Origin: Acrasis kona
Lineage: Eukaryota; Heterolobosea; Eutetramitea; Acrasida; Acrasidae
Length of the DNA: 45,483 bases
Assembly: GCA_026419775.2 (NCBI GenBank)
Contig: JAOPGA020001503.1
Location: 1-45,483, forward strand
Reading direction: 5' to 3'
The notes beneath the pieces were generated by a model. The model ran no database searches. It was not told where the DNA came from and was given only the letters and a program-made list of their open reading frames with translations. Numbering within the stretch: the stretch's first letter is position 1; every line of letters begins with the position of its first letter. A program made the translations under genes and the position numbers. This document shows positions 2,864-45,483 of the stretch, one piece after another.

Positions 2864-5800
2864 ATGTCTAATCAAATCATACCTCTGGTAGAACAGACAG
2901 AAGTTGAGAAGAATGCCACCGGACTGAGTTTACTTGTAAATGGCACCAAAGATGACGCTGTAAGCTTTGAGCAAAAACAATTCCCGCTGCTCGAATTCAA
3001 GGATAAAGACATAGAGTCAGAATTCTGTAGATCATATTATGGCCCTATACTGTACCATGTTAAATTCTATTTTCTACTAACCGTGTAGATGGAGACCTAA
3101 AGTGTGTCTAATATTAGCTGGTTCTCTTTGGATTGCATCCGTTGTGGTTGATTTAAACAGCCCGAAGAGTGGCCATACTTTAACCCAAATACTGTTGATA
3201 AACATAATACCTTCCGCATCCGCTTTTATCGCAAGCTTTCTATTGTTCTTCAAATTTGTGAGTTCGAAATTAAAACTTTCCCCTAACATGTTTAGGTACA
3301 GAATAGACCAATCATTTTTGAGGTTATAATAGTCACCACAACATCAATATTTGTCATTATAGAATGTTTTGCTTGGGGAATAACTGCAGCAGAATATTAC
3401 GATAAACAGGGGATACCGAACATAGCCATTTTGACGGTCGTACAATGGAACGCTTTTTGCTACATGCGTACCAGATTCTCTTATGTACCTGGAATCATTG
3501 GGATACTATGTTATCCCATCTTTGGAATTGCGGAATGTGCACATTTGTTTTTCGACTATAACTCAAACGGATTGGTAGCTTTTCAAAACATTTACTTGTT
3601 TAAAATTATGACTCATTGGATGGGCTTCATAATAGCTGCTGTCATTTCTTTTGTAGAGGCGACCACAAATCAATATTTTTACAGAAACGCTTTTGTGCAA
3701 CAAAAACTACTACAGAGTCAACAAGCCAGAACAGAAAAGGAACTCAAAAGGACGAGCTTGATTCTACAAAATATATTTCCAGAGGTGTTAGTGAGGGAAC
3801 TAATGAACAGTCCTAACACAAACCGTCCGTGTGTTAACGGTTCGAGAATTTTCCAACTGTATGAACAATGTTCAGTGTTACAATCCGACATTGTTGAGTT
3901 TACAAAATGGAGCAGTAGCTGCACTGCACAAACAGTCGTAATGATGCTAAATGCACATTTCTGTGCATTCGATGATATTTCTTCTCAGCTAGGAGTAGAG
4001 AAGGTCAAAACTATTGTAAGTGTCATGCTAGAGTATTATTCTGAAACATACAGGGAGATGCATATTTGTGTGTGACTGGCTTGAAAAACGAATCAGATCA
4101 CTCTGGGAAGCTTGTTGAAATGAGTTTGCAGATGTCACAAGCAGTAGTGCATATAAATAAATTATATGGATGGAACATTCAGTTACGAATAGGTATAGGT
4201 AGGGGAAGTGTGCTCGCTGCCGTAATCGGAACAAAGAAATTGACATTCGATTGGTATGTTCAGTTCTTACGCTCTTAAATAACAATGTAGCTATGGAGAA
4301 GCTGTAAAGTCCGCTAGAATCATGGAAGCGAGTTGTAAACCTGGGCGCATTAGTGTAGATAATTGTATTTACACCGCTACAAATTTTCATTTTGATTACA
4401 AAAAAAGAGTACAGTCAATCTTATACGTGGTAGATTAATAATTATAGACTGATTTACTTGGTTACAATCTTATTGATAAAAAAATCCCAGAAGAAATTGA
4501 TACCCCGACTTCACCTCTCCGTTCGACAGACACCCCTCTTCAAGAAAGCGATGAAATTAAACAAAGCATGTCCAATTTACTTGCCACACAGATACAAAAA
4601 GAAAGTAGCTAAAACAAACACACAAGACAAATGGACATTGAGGTTATTTATAACTGATAATATTTATGATAACTGGAGAATGTATAAATTTATTTATAAG
4701 GAACAGTACAATACCTTTAGAATTATTGCAGCATTGCTTGTGATTTGTCATTTATATATTATTTGTACTCTTAATTGGATGTACCCAGATAAATATAAAT
4801 CTGGCATCATGATTTCACAATATGTTATTGCTGGAATTAGTTTGTTGATTACAATTGCTTACATGTGCCCTATTGGCGAGTCTCATATCTTTGGAATTTT
4901 AGTAGTCGCCGCCTCCTATTGTATTTTGTCGATTTCCCAATATATATCTTTTCTGGACAATGATTTTGACAGCATTGATAGTGGTCAAATTATCATTTAT
5001 ACAATTATGTAAGCATTTTTTTACTGACAATCATTTATAACTGCTTTAGAATGTGTTTGTTTCCAGCTATTCATTATTTTGTAAAGGCAGTTATGATCCT
5101 GATCATGATGACTGTTGCTATTATTATGGATGTGGTTGTTTATGATTCTTGGGATGTAAATCAGACCATTTATGCGCTGCTTGGGATACTGTCTTTGCTT
5201 GGCACTGGGTATTTCAATTTTTACGCCTCGTTGGTACTGTACATGACAAATAAGAAGACAACAGCACAGATAAAAAAAGTCAACAAAGAACGAGAGTTCA
5301 ATAACCAAATGATATTGAGTACATTGCCTTCAAATGTGGTTTCTAGAATAAAATTAAATGATTCGATCTCTGACAACATTAGTTGTGGGACAGCTTGTTT
5401 TATACTGGTGGATGGACTAAGTGATCTTATGGTTCATAATACTCTCAAAGCTTTGGAGGTGCTGGATATTCTATTCTGTACCTACGACGAGAAGGTTGAT
5501 AAATATGGTTGTCAAAAGATTAAATCAATCGACAGTTCATACCTTGTGGTATGTGGTTTATCGTCTGAATCTAATCACTGCGTACGAATTTCGAACTTTA
5601 GTACAGATGTACTCAGTAGCTCTATTGAAATAATAAAAAAACTAAAAGCCAACAGTGAATCCTTTATTGGTATGAACGTCAAAATTGGGTTTTCTAGTGG
5701 TAATTTTGTTGCAGGTGTACTGGGGACTAGTAAAATTTTGTATGATGTGTTTGGGGATACCATCAACACTGCAAGTAGAATGTCTTCTACTTGTGGTCCT

Positions 5801-5944
5801 AACATGATTCAACTGTGTGAGGCTGCCTACAACCAACTCAAGAACGTAGAATGCATTTCGCTAGAGCCAAAAGGAATGATTAGTGTGAAAGGAAAGGGAT
5901 TACTCATGACATATACATTGGATACCCAGGATAAATCTTTATAA
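2864..5944 (+). CDS. Two-repeat (12-TM) transmembrane adenylyl cyclase
   Basis: Predicted to make cAMP from ATP at a membrane. Exons by frame and GT-AG sites: 2864-3051, 3089-3257, 3296-4015, 4054-4253, 4291-4408, 4448-about 4604, about 4627-5008, 5050-5944, giving about 942 residues. Order: polar N-terminus, six hydrophobic segments, cyclase domain C1, linker, six more hydrophobic segments, cyclase domain C2. C1 holds both metal-binding aspartates, D317 in SDIVEFT and D361 in KTIGDAY, 44 apart as in mammalian enzymes, but lacks the Asn/Arg pair. C2 lacks the metal aspartates but keeps K803, adenine-selecting D877, N884 and R888 (YDVFGDTIN, ASRM). This is the one-site pseudo-heterodimer layout. 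Domain calls are firm. The join at 4604/4627 needs an unusually short 22-nt intron, or reflects an indel. Confidence 0.85.
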
Positions 5945-6155: not shown

Positions 6156-7655
6156 TTAACTCAACAGTGGATTAATTTTTAAATTCTTGTCTCTTATTAA
6201 ATACAAATTCATTGCATCTTCCAAACTGTACTGCTCATCATGTTTTAATCTAAATGGAGATGCCAAACTGAATGCACTGTAGGCATCGAACATTTGTTTG
6301 GAAATATCTTTAGACATGTTTCTTCTTTCTAACGCACAAACAGCAAACAATGCTTCCATACAAACAACTTTTTGTGCGATGGGAAGTAATTCTTCCAAAA
6401 TACATACAACATGTGGAAGTGGAGAATTATAATCTTCTACTCCTTCTGCTATACTACAACCACTTGCGAATCTATTAATAAACGTTGCAGAGTTAACTTT
6501 ATTCAATGCTTCTCTCACAAAAGCACACAACCAGTATGGAAGATTTCTTGTATAAATACCATCAAGTTGACTGACTTGACCAAGACCACCACACAAACCA
6601 GATGCTAATCCACTGAATTTTCTATCATACTGTTTACCTGCCCTACCTTCACTTGTTTGCACCACAGTACCAATGGCATGAATAACAGATTGAACTGCGT
6701 TAGTGACCCTCGTGGTATCGTAGTTACTTGTTGATACAAAAACATCTTGATCAATAACTGGATTCCCTTGGTGCGCATTAATATCATGTAATAAACATTG
6801 TTCTGCATGATCTAAAGCTTCTAACAAACAACCTAATATCTCTGTTACATTTCTCAAGCTTAAAAAGGCTTGGATGCCAATGGCTGTACCATCCTCAAGT
6901 AGAGCACTACCATGCATCAAATTTCTAAGAGACTCAGATACAGTCTTCTTGAAAGGATTTGCGGAGGAGTTTGAAACTGTTGTGCTGAACGGAGATGGGT
7001 TTGCACGGAGTCCCTCATAGGAGAAGGCTACAGACAAAGTGGCGTTTGCTAAAAAATCACGAGCGCTACGGATGGCATAAACAGCACGTGCGATTGATAC
7101 CGCATTTGAGCTCATAAGAGCGAGTGCCTCTCCTGCGTCAAGCTTAAAAGTATTTGATAAAAGATGCAATGCCATTTGAGATAATGGTATTAAATCAGCG
7201 GACCCAACAGAAGCATTTATTTCAATATTTTGATAAGGTACAATATCTTTGTTGATTTTGCTTAAAATTTCTTCGAACAATTCTAACCTTATGCTGGATT
7301 TTCCATGCGCAAATCCATTTAATAAAATTGTCCACGCAGCCCTTGTAATTTTCTTTATTTTTGAATCGTTCTGTACTTTACTACAAAGTGAAGTTGCGTG
7401 TTGTACGAGAACAATTTGATTAAATGCTTGTATTTGTTCTTTGGTTAGAATTTGGTCCTTGTCACTTCCGAACATTGTGGTTATCCCATAAATTATCTTG
7501 AGTTCCAATATCGCCTTTTGCACTGTGCCCCACGTGGTTATAATCTTTTGTTTGGATTGTTGGCTTATGGCAACCGACGCTTTGTTATCTCCCACGTTGA
7601 TGATTTGGTCTGTCGTTAGTGAGTTTCCATCCAAAACGATTGTCTCCATTCCCAA
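6156..7655 (-). CDS. Aromatic amino acid lyase-like protein (HAL/PAL family)
   Basis: Intronless, 499 residues, close to the usual length of bacterial-type histidine ammonia-lyases. These deaminate His, Phe or Tyr with a cofactor (MIO) made autocatalytically from an internal Ala-Ser-Gly. Family landmarks: YGITTMFG (Tyr56, the counterpart of the catalytic Tyr in YGxxTGFG), the helical AAWTILLNGFAHGKSSIRLEL block, and the MIO region near residues 147-161. That region reads ASVGSADLIPLSQMA instead of GSVGASGDLAPLSHMA, so the triad would be Gly-Ser-Ala and one residue is missing. Activity is therefore uncertain; it could be a divergent lyase or a non-catalytic homologue. The start is the first ATG of the frame, with a second Met two codons later. 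Confidence 0.8.
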   Translation of the reverse strand: MGMETIVLDGNSLTTDQIINVGDNKASVAISQQSKQKIITTWGTVQKAILELKIIYGITTMFGSDKDQILTKEQIQAFNQIVLVQHATSLCSKVQNDSKIKKITRAAWTILLNGFAHGKSSIRLELFEEILSKINKDIVPYQNIEINASVGSADLIPLSQMALHLLSNTFKLDAGEALALMSSNAVSIARAVYAIRSARDFLANATLSVAFSYEGLRANPSPFSTTVSNSSANPFKKTVSESLRNLMHGSALLEDGTAIGIQAFLSLRNVTEILGCLLEALDHAEQCLLHDINAHQGNPVIDQDVFVSTSNYDTTRVTNAVQSVIHAIGTVVQTSEGRAGKQYDRKFSGLASGLCGGLGQVSQLDGIYTRNLPYWLCAFVREALNKVNSATFINRFASGCSIAEGVEDYNSPLPHVVCILEELLPIAQKVVCMEALFAVCALERRNMSKDISKQMFDAYSAFSLASPFRLKHDEQYSLEDAMNLYLIRDKNLKINPLLS

Positions 7656-9895: not shown

Positions 9896-11965
9896 TCAGT
9901 ATTGCCTATACCCACCTTGTGGTGGATAGGGACCTTGTTGTGGAGGAGGATATCCACCTTGTTGTGGGTATGGGCCTTGTTGTGGTGGGGGATAACCGCC
10001 CTGTGGTGGATAGGGACCTTGTTGTGGAGGTGGATATCCACCTTGTTGTGGGTATGGACCTTGTTGTGGTGGGGGATAACCGCCTTGTTGAGGTGGGTAT
10101 TGTTGCTGTGGATATCCACCTTGTTGTGGTGGGTAGTTTTGTGATGGAGGTGGTTGTGGATAGCTTTGAGGGCGTGGAGCCTGTTGTGGTGAATAGGGAC
10201 CTTGTTGTGGCGAGGGTGGACTAGCAACACCATTGGCTTGCATCAGTGGTACGTCTTGTGGATATGGTTCAGGAGCAGTCTGCTGTTGTTTAGCTGCTTG
10301 TTTCTTTTTGAAGTAAGCAACAAGTGCAGCAACAGCACCAGTCAAAATTGCTATGATGGCACCAATTGTTACTACTGGAGCTACAACTCCTGGTACATTT
10401 AAGCCATCGCCAGATCCAGTACTATTTCTGTTGTTTGATGTAGTATATACTGAGAGCGTATTGATAGCAACGTAAGAAGTAATGACACTGCTGATTTGTC
10501 TGGATGAAGAAGCGGTTACCGCTCTAGTGCTTTGGGAGAAGACCAGATTCAATGTTTTCAAGTCAGTCAGTAGAGGAGTAGTAACTTGTGTTGAACATAT
10601 CAGTCCACTTGATGTTGATAGCGATGCAGAGACTGTCTTAATGCCAGCGGTCGTAGCATTTGCGTATAGCTGCAAATTGTATGTAGTACCAGTGGAAAAG
10701 GAACAAGACTGTTTGCTGAAAACTCTCGACGCTCCTGATGTGTAGACTACTCCGATGTTGAAACTGGTTGGGTTTACTTCAAGAGCACCTAGTATAGTTT
10801 GAGAAGCGGTGGTCATCCAAAACTCTATCACATTAAAAACACTTGATGTAGTAGTGGCGATTATGCTGAACGACATTGTAGCGATAGTTGAGATTCCTGA
10901 GCCTGATGACACCGGCGAAACAGAAGGTGCCAATACAAGGCTCTTTCTGTCATTTGATGTAGAGTTTATAGAGATGGTTGTATATAGTGGTGACGATGAA
11001 GTCGAAGGAAGAAAAGCGATGCATCCAGTTCCCAGTGAGAAGTCGCCTGCGGTACATGTGACTCTGCTTAAATCAACTACTGTTGCTGTTGGAGAAGATG
11101 GCGATGGTGAAGATGTCGAGTTGGATTTTTGAGCAGCAGTTGATGTTGGTGTTGGGGAGGGCGTAGGTGTATTAGTAAGGTTGGTAGTCGGAGCGTTTGT
11201 TTGATTAAATGCTGGTGTTGGTGTTGGTGTTGGTGTTGGGGAAGGTGTTGGTGTTGGTGTTGATGTTGGTGTTAGTGTTGGGGAAGGTGTTGGCGTTGGC
11301 GTTGATGTTGGTGTTAGTGTTGGGGAAGGTGTTGGCGTTGACGTTGATGTTGGGGAAGGTGTTGGTGTTGGCGTTAATGTTGGTGTTGGGGAAGGTGTTG
11401 GCGTTGGCGTTAATGTTGGTGTGGGCGTTGGAGTTGGCGTTGGAGTTGGAGTTGGAGTTGGCGTTGGAGTTGGCGTTGGAGTTCGTGTTGGCGTTGGTGT
11501 TGGTGTTGGGGAAGGTGTTGGTGTTGGTGTTGGCGTTGGCGTTGGCGTTGGCGTTAATGTTGGTGTGGGCGTTGGAGTTGGCGTTGGTGTTGGTGTTGGC
11601 GTTGGCGTTAATGTTGGAGTTGGAGTTGGTGTTGGCGTTGGTGTTGGCGTTGATGTTGGCGTTGATGTGGGCGTTGGCGTTAATGTTGGCGTTGGTGTTG
11701 GTGTTGGCGTTGGAGTTGATGTTGGAGTTGATGTTGGAGTTGATGTTGGAGTTGGTGTTGGAGTTGGCGTTGGTGTTGGCGTTGATGTTGGAGTTGGAGT
11801 TGGCGTTGGTGTGGGCGTTGGTGTGGGCGTTGGTGTTGGCGTTGAGGTAGGTGAGCTAGAACCTGTAGCTGTTGATGTTGGTGTTGGTGTTTGACATTCT
11901 GAGAAAGCTATCAACAATATCAAAAGTGACACGGTGACGAAAAGCTTAGACGCTCTGAATCTCAT
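9896..11965 (-). CDS. Thr-Pro-repeat type I surface protein with P/Q/G/Y-rich tail
   Basis: Single-exon protein of 689 residues. A signal peptide ([20 protein letters not shown] then FSEC) is followed by about 220 residues of nearly pure Thr-Pro dipeptides with some Ser, a stalk likely to be O-glycosylated. A Ser/Thr-rich globular stretch of about 230 residues with a few cysteines comes next, then one transmembrane helix ([22 protein letters not shown]). The cytosolic tail is rich in Pro, Gln, Gly and Tyr, with repeats of the type [12 protein letters not shown]. The layout suggests a mucin-like cell-surface protein. I do not recognise the globular part. The start codon directly precedes the signal peptide. 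Confidence 0.8.
9905..10110. repeat. Tandem repeats coding the P/Q/G/Y-rich tail
   Basis: Imperfect units of about 36-48 nt built around CCTTGTTGTGG and GGATATCCACC, which on the coding (minus) strand give repeats of PPPQQGPYP and QQGGY. They form the last third of the cytosolic tail of the Thr-Pro surface protein. Adjacent units differ by few substitutions, so copy number may vary between strains. Confidence 0.75.
11205..11850. repeat. Hexamer-based minisatellite encoding Thr-Pro stalk
   Basis: About 640 nt built from GTTGGT-type hexamers with variants (GTTGGC, GTTGGA, GATGTT, AATGTT, GGGGAA). It lies inside the surface-protein gene, where the opposite strand reads as Thr-Pro repeats. Higher-order units can be seen, for example GTTGGGGAAGGTGTTGG recurring several times between 11236 and 11520. 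All three plus-strand frames are also largely open because the repeat contains no stop codons; those frames are composition artefacts. Confidence 0.9.
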
Positions 11966-40611: not shown

Positions 40612-41940
40612 CTAGTTCCAGAACAAGAATGTATAAACACCATCCAACTTTGATGGATTCGCACGGTTGTACACTCTGAACGCCTTCGTCACCAACTCCA
40701 CTACGCTTCCGTTCTTGTCGATGACGAGCGCTCTACCTTGATGTTCTGTTTTTAAATGATTTTGTCTCAACATTTCCGTTCCATTTTCCATGGTCTGCAT
40801 GATGATGATGCGTTTCTGTCTGTCCTCTTTGATGCTCTTCATCGACCAGTTCACGTGCAGAGGAATGAATAAATCGTAGTAACTCTTGATGGCGTCGGGA
40901 CTGGCATGTCCCAACTTTTGAATGATGCTGTCGGAAACGTATTGAATGCTTGGTACGTCCTGACTCACGATGACGCCCATCTTTTCGTGTTTGTTGGCAT
41001 CGGCGTTAACCGAAAAAGTACCTGGATCCATGTTGTCAATCTCGCTCAGCAGGAAGCCGTCGTCTTCTTCGTTCGCACTTCCTCCCAGGTTGAGTCCATA
41101 TTGTTCGTTCTCGTTCACTAGGTGAGGAGGACATGAAAGTTGATTGAGTTGATGTGGATTGTGCGGTATCGCTTGGTTGTAATTGGAGAAGCGATTGGGG
41201 ATTGTGCTAGGTTGGGTGGGACTCTGACTGTTGTGTGAAAAAATGTTGTCCGACAACATGTTCGGATTGGGACTATTATTTTTGCTATTGTTACTGTGGG
41301 TGGTGGGTGGTGGCAATTGTTGTTGAGACATTTGATAGGAATCAACGGAAGGACTGACACCTTCCTGAGGAATGTTATTTACAAAAGAATGTTGGTAGTT
41401 GGGAGAATATTCGTTTTTCTTTTGAGCCCTTCCTCTCTTTTTAATGGACTGAACATCTACGCAATCAAGCCCAAGCCTCTTGCACCTCTCGCATGGTCGC
41501 TGAAAACCGCACCTCGTATGTCTACGTTGGCACTCGTGACACGCTTTGCTGGCGCGCTTCCTTCCGTTGGGGTACATTTTTAATCGCTTCGAGTTGGGAT
41601 CTCGTATCATTTTTCCATTTTTTCCCATTATAAAGTCGGCTTCGTCGTCTTCATCTTCGTCATATTCGTCCTCATCATCATCATACTGTTCTTCGCTAAA
41701 ATTCATGGGGTATAAATATGGTTGCTGGTTTAGGTGTTGGTTCTTTTGTGCACCACCATCTGTATTAAATGACAACAGTTGGCGGTTTATATGGTTTTGC
41801 TGCTCTTCAAAAGAGGCACCAGATATGTTTGGCACCTGTTGTAGGTTATAAAAGTCCTCCTGCGTTCCGCCTAGAGAATAATGGTCCATGATATTATCAG
41901 AGTTATTGTTATCGAATCTATGGTTAACTCCGGTAGACAA
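40612..41940 (-). CDS. Zn2Cys6 transcription factor with C-terminal PAS-like domain
   Basis: 442 residues, one exon. After an acidic, low-complexity N-terminus comes a fungal-type binuclear cluster, KACHECQRRHTRCGFQRPCE continuing RCKRLGLDC, with the exact C-x2-C-x6-C-x5-C-x2-C-x6-C spacing. A basic linker (KKRGRAQKKNEY) and a long Asn/Gln/Pro/Ser region follow. The last about 125 residues (MGVIVSQDVPSIQYVSDSII then QKLGHASPDAIKSYYDLFIP) fit a PAS sensor as in fungal ERT1/AcuK-like regulators. It should bind DNA in the nucleus; its ligand and targets are unknown. Polyglutamate/aspartate runs at about 41640-41690 are coding. Confidence 0.85.
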   Translation of the reverse strand: MSTGVNHRFDNNNSDNIMDHYSLGGTQEDFYNLQQVPNISGASFEEQQNHINRQLLSFNTDGGAQKNQHLNQQPYLYPMNFSEEQYDDDEDEYDEDEDDEADFIMGKNGKMIRDPNSKRLKMYPNGRKRASKACHECQRRHTRCGFQRPCERCKRLGLDCVDVQSIKKRGRAQKKNEYSPNYQHSFVNNIPQEGVSPSVDSYQMSQQQLPPPTTHSNNSKNNSPNPNMLSDNIFSHNSQSPTQPSTIPNRFSNYNQAIPHNPHQLNQLSCPPHLVNENEQYGLNLGGSANEEDDGFLLSEIDNMDPGTFSVNADANKHEKMGVIVSQDVPSIQYVSDSIIQKLGHASPDAIKSYYDLFIPLHVNWSMKSIKEDRQKRIIIMQTMENGTEMLRQNHLKTEHQGRALVIDKNGSVVELVTKAFRVYNRANPSKLDGVYTFLFWN

Positions 41941-42095
41941 CTTGCCCCTTGAATTGCACTTTTAAAGAACTAGGTATCTCGTTTTGAAAGAGGCTCTGTG
42001 GCGTTACAAATAGAATATTATTAAAATACTCCCATAAATAGACAACTACGGTAAACTTGAGCGGTCACTATCGATAGCGCTTAGACAGACGATGG

Positions 42096-42800
42096 ATGTT
42101 TGTTAACTCCTTGGGTCAACAAATCAACAAAAAATCTTCCGACGGAGAAGCAGACGTAAATTGGGTGCATCATGATCAATTCCTTCCAGTTATACGTAAA
42201 CTACACAAAGATTCTCATGTGTACAAGATGAGAAATAAATATATCGATCGCGTAGAACCAAGAACTGTTCTACCAACTATTTCAAACAAACCACCATCGA
42301 AAAACGATGTAGATGAGGTTGATCAATACAAAAACAGTCTTAATCATTTGAGCAGGAGTTTTAGTGGCTCTAACATTATTCCTGACAACACACACAATGT
42401 TTCAACAAACTTGGAGAAGGAAAGTACCGAAATTAAAACCAGTGACTGTGGTGAGGATGTTACTATTGAGTGCGTAAACGAAAGGAGTTTATCTGTATCT
42501 AATGTCAGGCTGGAAAAGAAATCTGAAAGAAAACGTTCTGCTTCGACGGTACCCTTTGATACCATAAAACAGAAAACATTAAGGTCCAACAAAAGCTTTA
42601 CCGAAAAAGAAAAAAAAAAGGTTGAGAAACTCGAAAAAATTGAAAAGGTTGCGGTTCAAGAAGTTAACAATGAGCAGACGCAAAACTACATTGTAAATAA
42701 AATTGTCTTGTTGCCTGCAACAGAAAACATTTGTGGATGGGACACCGAGGCACCAGCATCACCGCTGTCATGGAAGGAATGCGATGAGGAGATGTCGTGA
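42096..42800 (+). CDS. Hypothetical charged, mostly disordered protein
   Basis: 234 residues starting MFVNSLGQQINKKS. The N-terminal 70 residues contain the most conserved-looking part, NWVHHDQFLPVIRKLHKDSH and KYIDRVEPRTVLP. A Ser/Asn-rich middle follows, then a lysine/glutamate helix (FTEKEKKKVEKLEKIEKV) and a C-terminal stretch with GWDTEAPASPLSWKECDEEM. No domain, signal or membrane segment is recognised. The gene could continue in another exon, since an open frame overlaps its 3' end (to 42924), but no join is compelling. Confidence 0.5.
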   Translation: MFVNSLGQQINKKSSDGEADVNWVHHDQFLPVIRKLHKDSHVYKMRNKYIDRVEPRTVLPTISNKPPSKNDVDEVDQYKNSLNHLSRSFSGSNIIPDNTHNVSTNLEKESTEIKTSDCGEDVTIECVNERSLSVSNVRLEKKSERKRSASTVPFDTIKQKTLRSNKSFTEKEKKKVEKLEKIEKVAVQEVNNEQTQNYIVNKIVLLPATENICGWDTEAPASPLSWKECDEEMS

Positions 42801-43874
<1,074 letters not shown>

Positions 43875-44188
43875 ATGCTTATTCTTACTTTTATTGTGTA
43901 AATTGAAACTTTTATTAAAACTAGTGCTTGACAGTCAAATCCTTTCTTTATTATTTTTCTTTTTTCCAGTAGATTTAAACCATGTCCCACGTATGCTCTC
44001 TAACAATAAAATGAATGTATGTTCTCTTTATTATTTTCCAGTAAATGCATGAACGTTGAAAATGCTAAATGCTTTTCTTTTAAAACCCATTCACGTATGA
44101 TTCGAGTCACTCGTGCTCGATCTAAAACGTACAAATAAAAAAACAATGCATTAAATTAACAAAAAAGTTTATTATAATTAGACAAGAA
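43875..44188. other. Convergent 3' spacer
   Basis: AT-rich sequence between the 3' ends of histone H3 and the START-BLUF gene. It contains several TTTATT/AATAAA-like words on both strands that could serve as polyadenylation signals. A perfect-looking repeat of TTATT with TTCCAGTA (near 43965 and 44033) is present. No gene is evident, and no histone-type stem-loop was noticed. Confidence 0.4.
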
Positions 44189-45349
44189 CTAGAATATGGT
44201 GGCGGTATCAGGATCAAATATTTGATCACCTTTAACAAATTGCTGCAGTATCGTTGAAAAGTCCGAGTAATAAGTATCCAAATCCACAGCCTTCATGTTC
44301 CAATTAGGGTACTGCCTATCCTCTTCGCACAAATTAAATTCTTCCGATACGCACTGAATGTTATTGTGTCTTTTATCCTTTAAAATCTTCTCGTACAAAT
44401 CATCAATGTCAGTCGTGTTTCCTTCCAACACCTGATACAGAACTTTCCCAGAGCATATCAGCGTACCTGTTATCCTCTTCTTAGCATTGTTCTCATTCGA
44501 CAACCTCTCAATTTCCCTAATGTCCTTCTCCGTAACATCTCCATTAAATCTTGATGTGTAGACGATGCGCTTGATGCAATTAGGTTTGATGGGTGCCACG
44601 TCAGTAGAATTTGGAGTAGAAAAGAAACCTGCAGAAATACGTTCGCGAAGACGCTCCGTATTAACGTCCAAGGTCTTGTAAATACATTGTTCATCTTCAA
44701 ATACATTTAAATCTTTGACAACTAGATTAAGGTTTTCATCCAACATTTTTGCACGGTTACTATACAAACGGTTCCAAAAGTTAGATACGGCGCCCCAACC
44801 ACGCTTTGTAACATTTGCACAATGAACAGTCATGTATGTGGTCATCTTTGTGTTAGGATCTTCTCTAATGAGCCAACCCTCGTAGACCATACCAGCTAAT
44901 GTTTGAGATTCTGCTTGCTTGAGAGACTTTGATTCACTGTTTAGTGATTTGCGGACAAAGTAATAAGTGTTTGTACTTGCATCAAACAATAAGGCATTGG
45001 ACACTACAAACTTGACGCTCTCTAGTGGCCATATCAAGGGATGCGTTTCTTTTGTAATGCTCATTGCATATGTATGTATTGATCCAGGATTTATAAAGTC
45101 GATGGGTTCAGATCCATATAGCGTATTTTCAAGGGTGCGCCGTCCGTTAATGTTGGATATTGCCTTCACGACAGTGTTGGCTGAACAATTTATTGTGCCT
45201 TCGCACTTGAACATTGGCATTGGGTTTAGTAAGTCGGACCTGTCGAGGAAAAAGAATTCATCAGATACCTCGACGCCCTCTGTTAACCTTTTAAAGGAGA
45301 TGTACCTGTTGCCTTGAACTACTTTGGCAAATTCATTGGAATTTTTCAT
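44189..45349 (-). CDS. START-BLUF fusion, putative lipid-binding blue-light receptor
   Basis: 386 residues, one exon. Residues about 48-250 look like a START lipid-transfer domain: KCEGTINCSANTVVKAISNI, THPLIWPLESVKFVVSNALL, MVYEGWLIRED and TYMTVHCANVTKRGWGAVSN. Residues 259-355 are a BLUF flavin domain: RIVYTSRFNGD, NNAKKRITGTLICSGKVLYQ, VLEGNTTDIDDLYEKILKDK, QYPNWNMKAVD. The functional residues Tyr264, Asn288 and Gln306 have the same spacing as Tyr21, Asn45 and Gln63 of AppA, and Trp350/Met352 fit the switch strand. It should therefore bind FAD and respond to blue light. Known heterolobosean BLUF proteins are linked to adenylyl cyclase; no cyclase domain is present here. An ambiguous base lies just before the start. 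Confidence 0.85.
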   Translation of the reverse strand: MKNSNEFAKVVQGNRYISFKRLTEGVEVSDEFFFLDRSDLLNPMPMFKCEGTINCSANTVVKAISNINGRRTLENTLYGSEPIDFINPGSIHTYAMSITKETHPLIWPLESVKFVVSNALLFDASTNTYYFVRKSLNSESKSLKQAESQTLAGMVYEGWLIREDPNTKMTTYMTVHCANVTKRGWGAVSNFWNRLYSNRAKMLDENLNLVVKDLNVFEDEQCIYKTLDVNTERLRERISAGFFSTPNSTDVAPIKPNCIKRIVYTSRFNGDVTEKDIREIERLSNENNAKKRITGTLICSGKVLYQVLEGNTTDIDDLYEKILKDKRHNNIQCVSEEFNLCEEDRQYPNWNMKAVDLDTYYSDFSTILQQFVKGDQIFDPDTATIF

Positions 45350-45368
45350 TACNCGTTTGTTGATTGAT

Positions 45369-45483
45369 TCATTTATTTATATTCTTTGGGCTCTTTCTAA
45401 ATTTTGATCCACGAGGTTTAGGGCGACTGTTGTAGATTGGCTTGAGATGTTGCTCGAGTAGCGAGATTTTTATCATTCATCTT
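45369..45483 (-). CDS. C-terminal exon of a gene cut by window edge (doubtful)
   Basis: Reading the minus strand toward lower coordinates gives MIKISLLEQHLKPIYNSR then PKPRGSKFRKSPKNINK and a TGA at 45369. The basic, non-random sequence looks like a protein C-terminus. An in-frame TGA precedes the Met, so it is either a 35-residue micro-gene or the last exon after an intron ending near 45480. It cannot be resolved without flanking sequence. Confidence 0.3.

Follow-up and report, generated by a model that had tools for sequence, protein, structure and literature searches.

A family of START-BLUF genes in Acrasis kona, four of seven with an N-terminal RGS domain

Modular flavin photoreceptors are an already known kind of protein, and the START-BLUF fusion of Acrasis kona described here is not a categorically new system. 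Among the closest described systems are the photoactivated adenylyl cyclases (PACs; e.g. bPAC and OaPAC), which carry the same type of BLUF domain and of which A. kona has one of its own on contig C88; further PACs are those of euglenids and Naegleria. Compared with the PACs, the family to which the present gene belongs has no cyclase, and its BLUF domain is C-terminal, lying behind a START domain and, in four genes, behind an RGS domain as well. Another system is that of the fungal RGS-LOV proteins, of which BcLOV4 is reportedly an example (said to be described by Glantz and colleagues in PNAS in 2018). The likeness lies in the fusion of RGS to a blue-light flavin sensor; that sensor is LOV and not BLUF, the lineage is unrelated, and the two were probably separate inventions. 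We know of no START domain in fungal RGS-LOV proteins, and Pfam scans of the present gene and its family returned no LOV domain. As for the middle domain, it has remote homologs in STARD10 and STARD4, proteins without BLUF. A. kona itself encodes RGS-START proteins with the same order (RGS, linker, START) as the START-BLUF clade, to which they are the sister group; unlike the START-BLUF family, they have no BLUF match at their loci.

According to the A. kona genome paper (PMC11589745), no lineage of the former Excavata other than that of Acrasis is known to be multicellular; it also reports that BLUF domains are mildly enriched and that two BLUF genes rise in aggregation. Blue-light induction of development is stated there as well, with reference to Reinhardt 1968 on Acrasis rosea, and is tied to BLUF genes in general terms only. 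The portions of its main text covered here mention regulators of heterotrimeric G proteins in general terms and contain neither 'RGS' nor 'START domain'. In PMC4469895, RGS appears among the abbreviations for natural photoreceptors in the legend of Figure 6. A START-BLUF protein had been predicted here as an undescribed combination, and it is indeed absent from the literature searched, which lacked most subscription journals; the same search returned no BLUF photoreceptor with a lipid-binding domain and, in the text accessible for these sources, no natural BLUF-RGS protein.

The START-BLUF gene of the window

The DNA analysed (the window, 45,483 nucleotides) is contig C783 of the assembly used. 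Its minus strand holds an uninterrupted frame of 386 amino acids at 44189-45349. As originally predicted, the frame is intact and contains a BLUF domain (PF04940; Pfam score 85.7 bits, cut-off 25, E 2.5e-24), the sole domain found by Pfam in this protein. The predicted BLUF residues Tyr264, Asn288 and Gln306 were found at their positions with spacings of 24 and 42; their equivalents in AppA are Y21, N45 and Q63. A PDB sequence search with the window protein returned 24 matches at E <= 1, of which 22 were BLUF proteins. The top nine, at E 5e-20 to 1.3e-18, were photoactivated adenylyl cyclases, with AppA well behind at 2.5e-9. We regard the two non-BLUF matches (E 0.39) as chance, as we do an NCBIfam match of the same protein that fell far under its cut-off (E 0.085). 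The features of the locus are as follows.

44189..45316, minus strand: genuine coding part in the window; frame residues 12-386 correspond to 76-450 of P0001, the full-length A. kona protein
44660..45274, minus strand: START-related domain, about residues 26-230 of the frame (hhalign support, no Pfam START match)
44291..44572, minus strand: BLUF domain, residues 260-353 (Pfam), with Tyr264, Asn288, Gln306, Trp350 and Met352
44189..44290, minus strand: C-terminal stretch 3' of BLUF with the end motif ...FDPDTATIF, a form common to the RGS-less members (alignments)
45317..45483, no strand: chimeric contig tail, not the true upstream of the gene (blastn), with a spurious ATG (45347-45349), residues 1-11 and an N at 45353
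43464..43874, plus strand: histone H3 gene, a convergent neighbour also present beside the C822 copy (Pfam Histone, E 7.3e-47); context only

The START and BLUF regions do lie in one frame, as predicted, and it is the 5' end (the ATG and residues 1-11) that was wrong. By blastn, window positions 41242-45316 correspond to C822:1-4083 at 98.8% identity, and positions 45315-45483 to C536:4209-4039 at 96.5%. On C536 the equivalent reading runs for 24 codons from the ATG before a stop, and the equivalent of the tail sits upstream of a frame that resembles, by eye, a HAD-type hydrolase. Thus, the last 167 bases of the window contig appear to be foreign and non-coding, and since the ATG at 45349 and residues 1-11 (MKNSNEFAKVV) fall inside this tail, they are spurious and most likely not part of the real protein. 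On C822 the frame extends upstream to give a 450-residue protein identical to the A. kona GenBank entry P0001 (450 aa, 100% identity over 97% of the window query), which is named 'photoactivated adenylate cyclase subunit beta'.

The two contigs are taken as alleles or unmerged ends of one locus, a rearranged second copy being less likely. In that alternative, the window would hold a truncated or rearranged pseudogene, i.e. a second copy of the C822 gene fused to foreign upstream DNA with no fault of assembly, and it would account for an identity of 98.8% and not 100% over 4.1 kb and for the indels in the flanking DNA. However, two silent changes are all that separates the coding part from that of C822, and the overlap starts exactly at base 1 of C822 and ends 167 bases before C783 itself does, the pattern expected of two alleles or of contig ends left unmerged. 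The assembly is moreover a 454/Illumina hybrid (PMC11589745), and we consider a pseudogene quite unlikely.

The assignment of the middle domain depended on profile comparisons. Pfam START (PF01852) gave no match to the window protein at E <= 1 or to full-length P0001 at E <= 5, and the single-sequence PDB search with the window protein (E <= 1) returned no START match either. In profile-profile alignment with hhalign, the START regions of C822, C440 and C60 matched nine RGS-START regions with a probability of 96.4% (E 1.2e-9, 191 columns) and seven other START regions of the genome with 95.4% (E 1.8e-8), these E-values being for one pair. Three column-shuffled control runs gave 0.1-0.3% and three BLUF-versus-START runs 0.1-0.6%. 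The START-like domain originally placed at residues 48-250 thus stands on the profile comparison and its shuffled controls, while the Pfam search for it came back empty. Two of the seven paralogues do pass the Pfam START cut-off of 22 (C896 with 30.5 bits and C619 with 23.4 bits), the other five falling below it. When a profile of the seven START regions was searched against the PDB, all three matches at E <= 1 were START proteins, weak ones, with STARD10 the best (E 0.013).

Together these comparisons support a START-related, divergent middle domain in the window gene. Its divergence is also visible in an NRDF-type motif, which reads NRDF in four of the seven START-BLUF genes, SVKF in the window gene, SRDV in C60 and NVDF in C440; the motif does not define the START family, because the pattern was seen in only five of nine RGS-START regions and two of seven other START regions. 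AlphaFold was run twice, each time on a shallow alignment of five rows, and both models were poor (mean pLDDT 43.5 and 33.9). In the first of them, a model of P0001, the order of strands and helices fits START by eye, but with the model this poor we take the START fold from homology.

The START-BLUF family and its RGS-START relatives

Across the genome assembly (37.35 Mb in 1021 contigs), Pfam placed BLUF above its cut-off at 10 places, with 11 match rows. At eight of these a START-like region, at least in part, lies upstream in the same frame. The place on C29 (L019), truncated where the contig ends, duplicates the C896 region at 99%, and the place on C88 (L020) is a BLUF-cyclase (67.4 bits for Pfam BLUF, 40.2 bits for Guanylate_cyc). 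This PAC-type gene has a predicted 45-base intron within its BLUF domain. With C783 merged with C822 and C29 with C896, the distinct genes are seven START-BLUF genes and one BLUF-cyclase, numbers that are lower bounds because the genome is estimated at 44.02 Mb (PMC11589745). The START-BLUF fusion in A. kona is real, a chance origin of the architecture being ruled out by the E-values and by the existence of the family. The window gene had been correctly singled out as START-like plus BLUF, and its heterolobosean origin correctly guessed; overlooked were the seven-paralogue family and the RGS domain that more than half of it carries.

The spliced START-BLUF models range from 450 to 645 amino acids. 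Three of the seven (C822, C896 and C619) are letter-identical to GenBank proteins, and those of C60, C440, C504 and C321 were spliced in this analysis and have no matching database protein. The C896 protein is AKO1_009658, with a precomputed Pfam annotation of START plus BLUF; that of C619, annotated as RGS plus BLUF, bears the name 'photoactivated adenylate cyclase subunit alpha'. The two 'photoactivated adenylate cyclase' names in GenBank are misleading, so the family is hidden from keyword searches. The BLUF Tyr, Asn and Gln are kept in six of the seven genes, and a Trp-x-Met in all seven. In C896, Phe stands for Tyr and Ser for Gln in a domain that still scores 69.1 bits; with these two residues replaced, this member is probably not light-responsive and offers a ready natural negative control for the light response.

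An RGS domain lies N-terminally above the Pfam cut-off of 23.9 in four of the seven genes, which are more striking than the window gene:

C619 (L006, L016): RGS-START-BLUF, RGS 53.8 bits
C321 (L017): RGS-START-BLUF, RGS 38.1 bits
C504 (L013): RGS-START-BLUF, RGS 32.5 bits
C896 (L018): RGS-START-BLUF, RGS 24.5 bits, barely above the cut-off

C619 further resembles known RGS structures, e.g. GAIP (E 3.6e-4). An Asn within an EVNI-type stretch, which in RGS4 has a role in G-alpha binding, is kept in all four. Pfam RGS found nothing in C822, C440, C60 or the window gene, and the last of these, lacking RGS, is related to the three-domain RGS-START-BLUF type but does not belong to it. The C-termini of P0001, P0002, P0003, C440 and C60 (the last loosely) share an end motif, F-x-[PVL]-[DE]-[TA]-x-x-[IVL]-[FM]. 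Three of the four RGS-bearing members have a tail with Trp-Ser at their end instead.

The genome holds 41 START matches and at least 150 RGS matches (150 of 202 RGS candidates were scored). For at least 17 of the 41, an RGS match precedes the START match by 112-500 bases on the same strand, a count based on the 27 of the 150 RGS rows that lie on contigs also bearing START matches. C896 is absent from these 17 pairs, though its spliced model has an RGS domain, and the number of distinct genes is lower than 17 because C527 and C167 are 98% copies of one region. A large RGS-START family without BLUF is seen at loci L030, L031, L032, L038, L040, L042, L047 and L049. Genes for G-alpha are present as well (74 match rows, three of them at E <= 6e-114).

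We built a tree of 23 START regions, hand-picked among those of the 41 matches that had open frames: seven START-BLUF, nine RGS-START and seven other START regions. C480 was placed with the RGS-START set on the end of an RGS domain and a linker seen by eye, having no listed RGS match. The seven START-BLUF genes form one clade (support 100/99), which groups with the RGS-START family (98/94), and the three RGS-less genes (the window gene/C822, C440 and C60) form one subclade (95/95). The position of C619 inside the START-BLUF clade has a support of 56/6. With the root placed by assumption on the other START rows, the simplest history is RGS-START first, followed by one gain of BLUF and one loss of RGS.

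The BLUF domain of the family looks PAC-like. That of C822 scores 68.2 bits against the C88 BLUF-cyclase and 57.4 against one bacterial BLUF, and that of C60 scores 60.1 and 64.3, respectively. A scan for bacterial BLUF yielded one locus, too few for a tree of BLUF origins. In the protein database, two short metagenomic relatives, P0002 (79%) and P0003 (46%), extend over BLUF and over some or most of START. Besides P0001, the database also returned P0004, a bacterial-type BLUF protein (E 4.3e-4), P0005, P0006 (BLUF with EAL, PF00563), P0007 and P0008 (START only). As only three of the seven A. kona genes, and not one of the four RGS-START query rows, came back from this database, the absence of the family elsewhere proves little.

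Readings of function

The reading we prefer, with a probability of roughly 55%, is that the window frame is the 3' part of a 450-residue START-BLUF gene, that its family arose from a PAC-type BLUF joined to RGS-START, and that the family would serve in light-regulated G-protein signalling. The gene, its domains, the family and the phylogeny are shown by the results above; the photochemistry, the lipid binding, the light control of RGS and the developmental role are what we infer. A PAC-type BLUF sensor would have been added C-terminally to a protein of the two-domain RGS-START type, which abounds in A. kona; four members would have kept the three-domain form, and the branch of the window gene, C440 and C60 would have lost RGS. 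FAD bound in the BLUF domain would absorb blue light and switch the hydrogen bonds between Tyr, Gln and flavin. This change could then pass through the START-BLUF linker and alter the binding of a lipid, a membrane or a neighbouring domain or protein by START. In the RGS-bearing members, the change in START would set when or where RGS accelerates GTP hydrolysis on G-alpha. The RGS-less members may bind membranes or lipids under the control of light, or may be partners of those with RGS, and the window branch may have a function of its own that differs from that of the RGS-bearing members. Biologically, the family would most likely take part when blue light induces the development of Acrasis. 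In the heterolobosean Naegleria fowleri, certain G-alpha subunits activate themselves and hydrolyse GTP faster under the action of RGS proteins (PMC9283941), so RGS may be a sensible point of light input in Acrasis too.

Other readings assign the family different work. The window protein could, independently of G proteins, be a light-gated lipid binder or transfer protein in which BLUF controls the release of a carried lipid. Lipids are the general ligands of START domains, and the window branch, with no RGS match, has nevertheless kept START and an intact BLUF. Its START is divergent, however, both in the Pfam search and in its SVKF, and it groups beside the RGS-START family, where START would more probably be regulatory or membrane-targeting; we find this reading rather unlikely. 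It is also unlikely that BLUF is mainly a dimerisation or docking module, with light sensing incidental or lost and the proteins acting as ordinary RGS-START or START regulators. C896, which retains a well-scoring BLUF domain after losing its Tyr and Gln, would fit such a module, but the other six genes have all three residues intact and every one has the Trp-x-Met. The 'alpha' and 'beta' in the GenBank names would make family members subunits of a photoactivated adenylyl cyclase, as would the PAC type of the BLUF and the nine BLUF-cyclases that head the PDB matches, and these BLUFs could in principle pair with the BLUF-cyclase on C88. Pfam finds a cyclase domain in none of the seven genes, though, and the names look like transfers from a BLUF match, leaving a subunit role hardly credible; a cyclase function of the proteins themselves, as named in GenBank, was rejected for want of a class III cyclase domain.

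If light does regulate G proteins through this family, as we prefer, a light sensor joined to START and RGS gives a concrete and testable route from light into the G-protein signalling of A. kona, one that is built from other parts than the parallel RGS-LOV proteins of fungi and would be a natural start for the optogenetic control of G-alpha. More tentatively, and with some doubt, RGS-START-BLUF might be a photoreceptor class of A. kona's own, a GAP for heterotrimeric G proteins that responds to lipid or membrane and is under direct blue-light control; with RGS-less START-BLUF partners such as the window gene, it would form the light switch for aggregative multicellularity.

Elsewhere in the window, several other features were noted. 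A 689-residue frame at 9896-11965 (minus strand) has long Thr-Pro repeats and, by eye, a transmembrane segment and a tail of Pro-Gln-Gly-Tyr repeats, and tandem repeats of 12 and 42 bases lie at 11213-11844. A Zn(2)-Cys(6) cluster domain, of a type best known in fungi, is found at 40612-41940 (minus strand), and an aromatic amino acid lyase at 6156-7655 (minus strand). Catalytic pieces of an adenylate/guanylate cyclase, perhaps exons of one gene, are located at 3431-4075 and 5051-5944 (plus strand).
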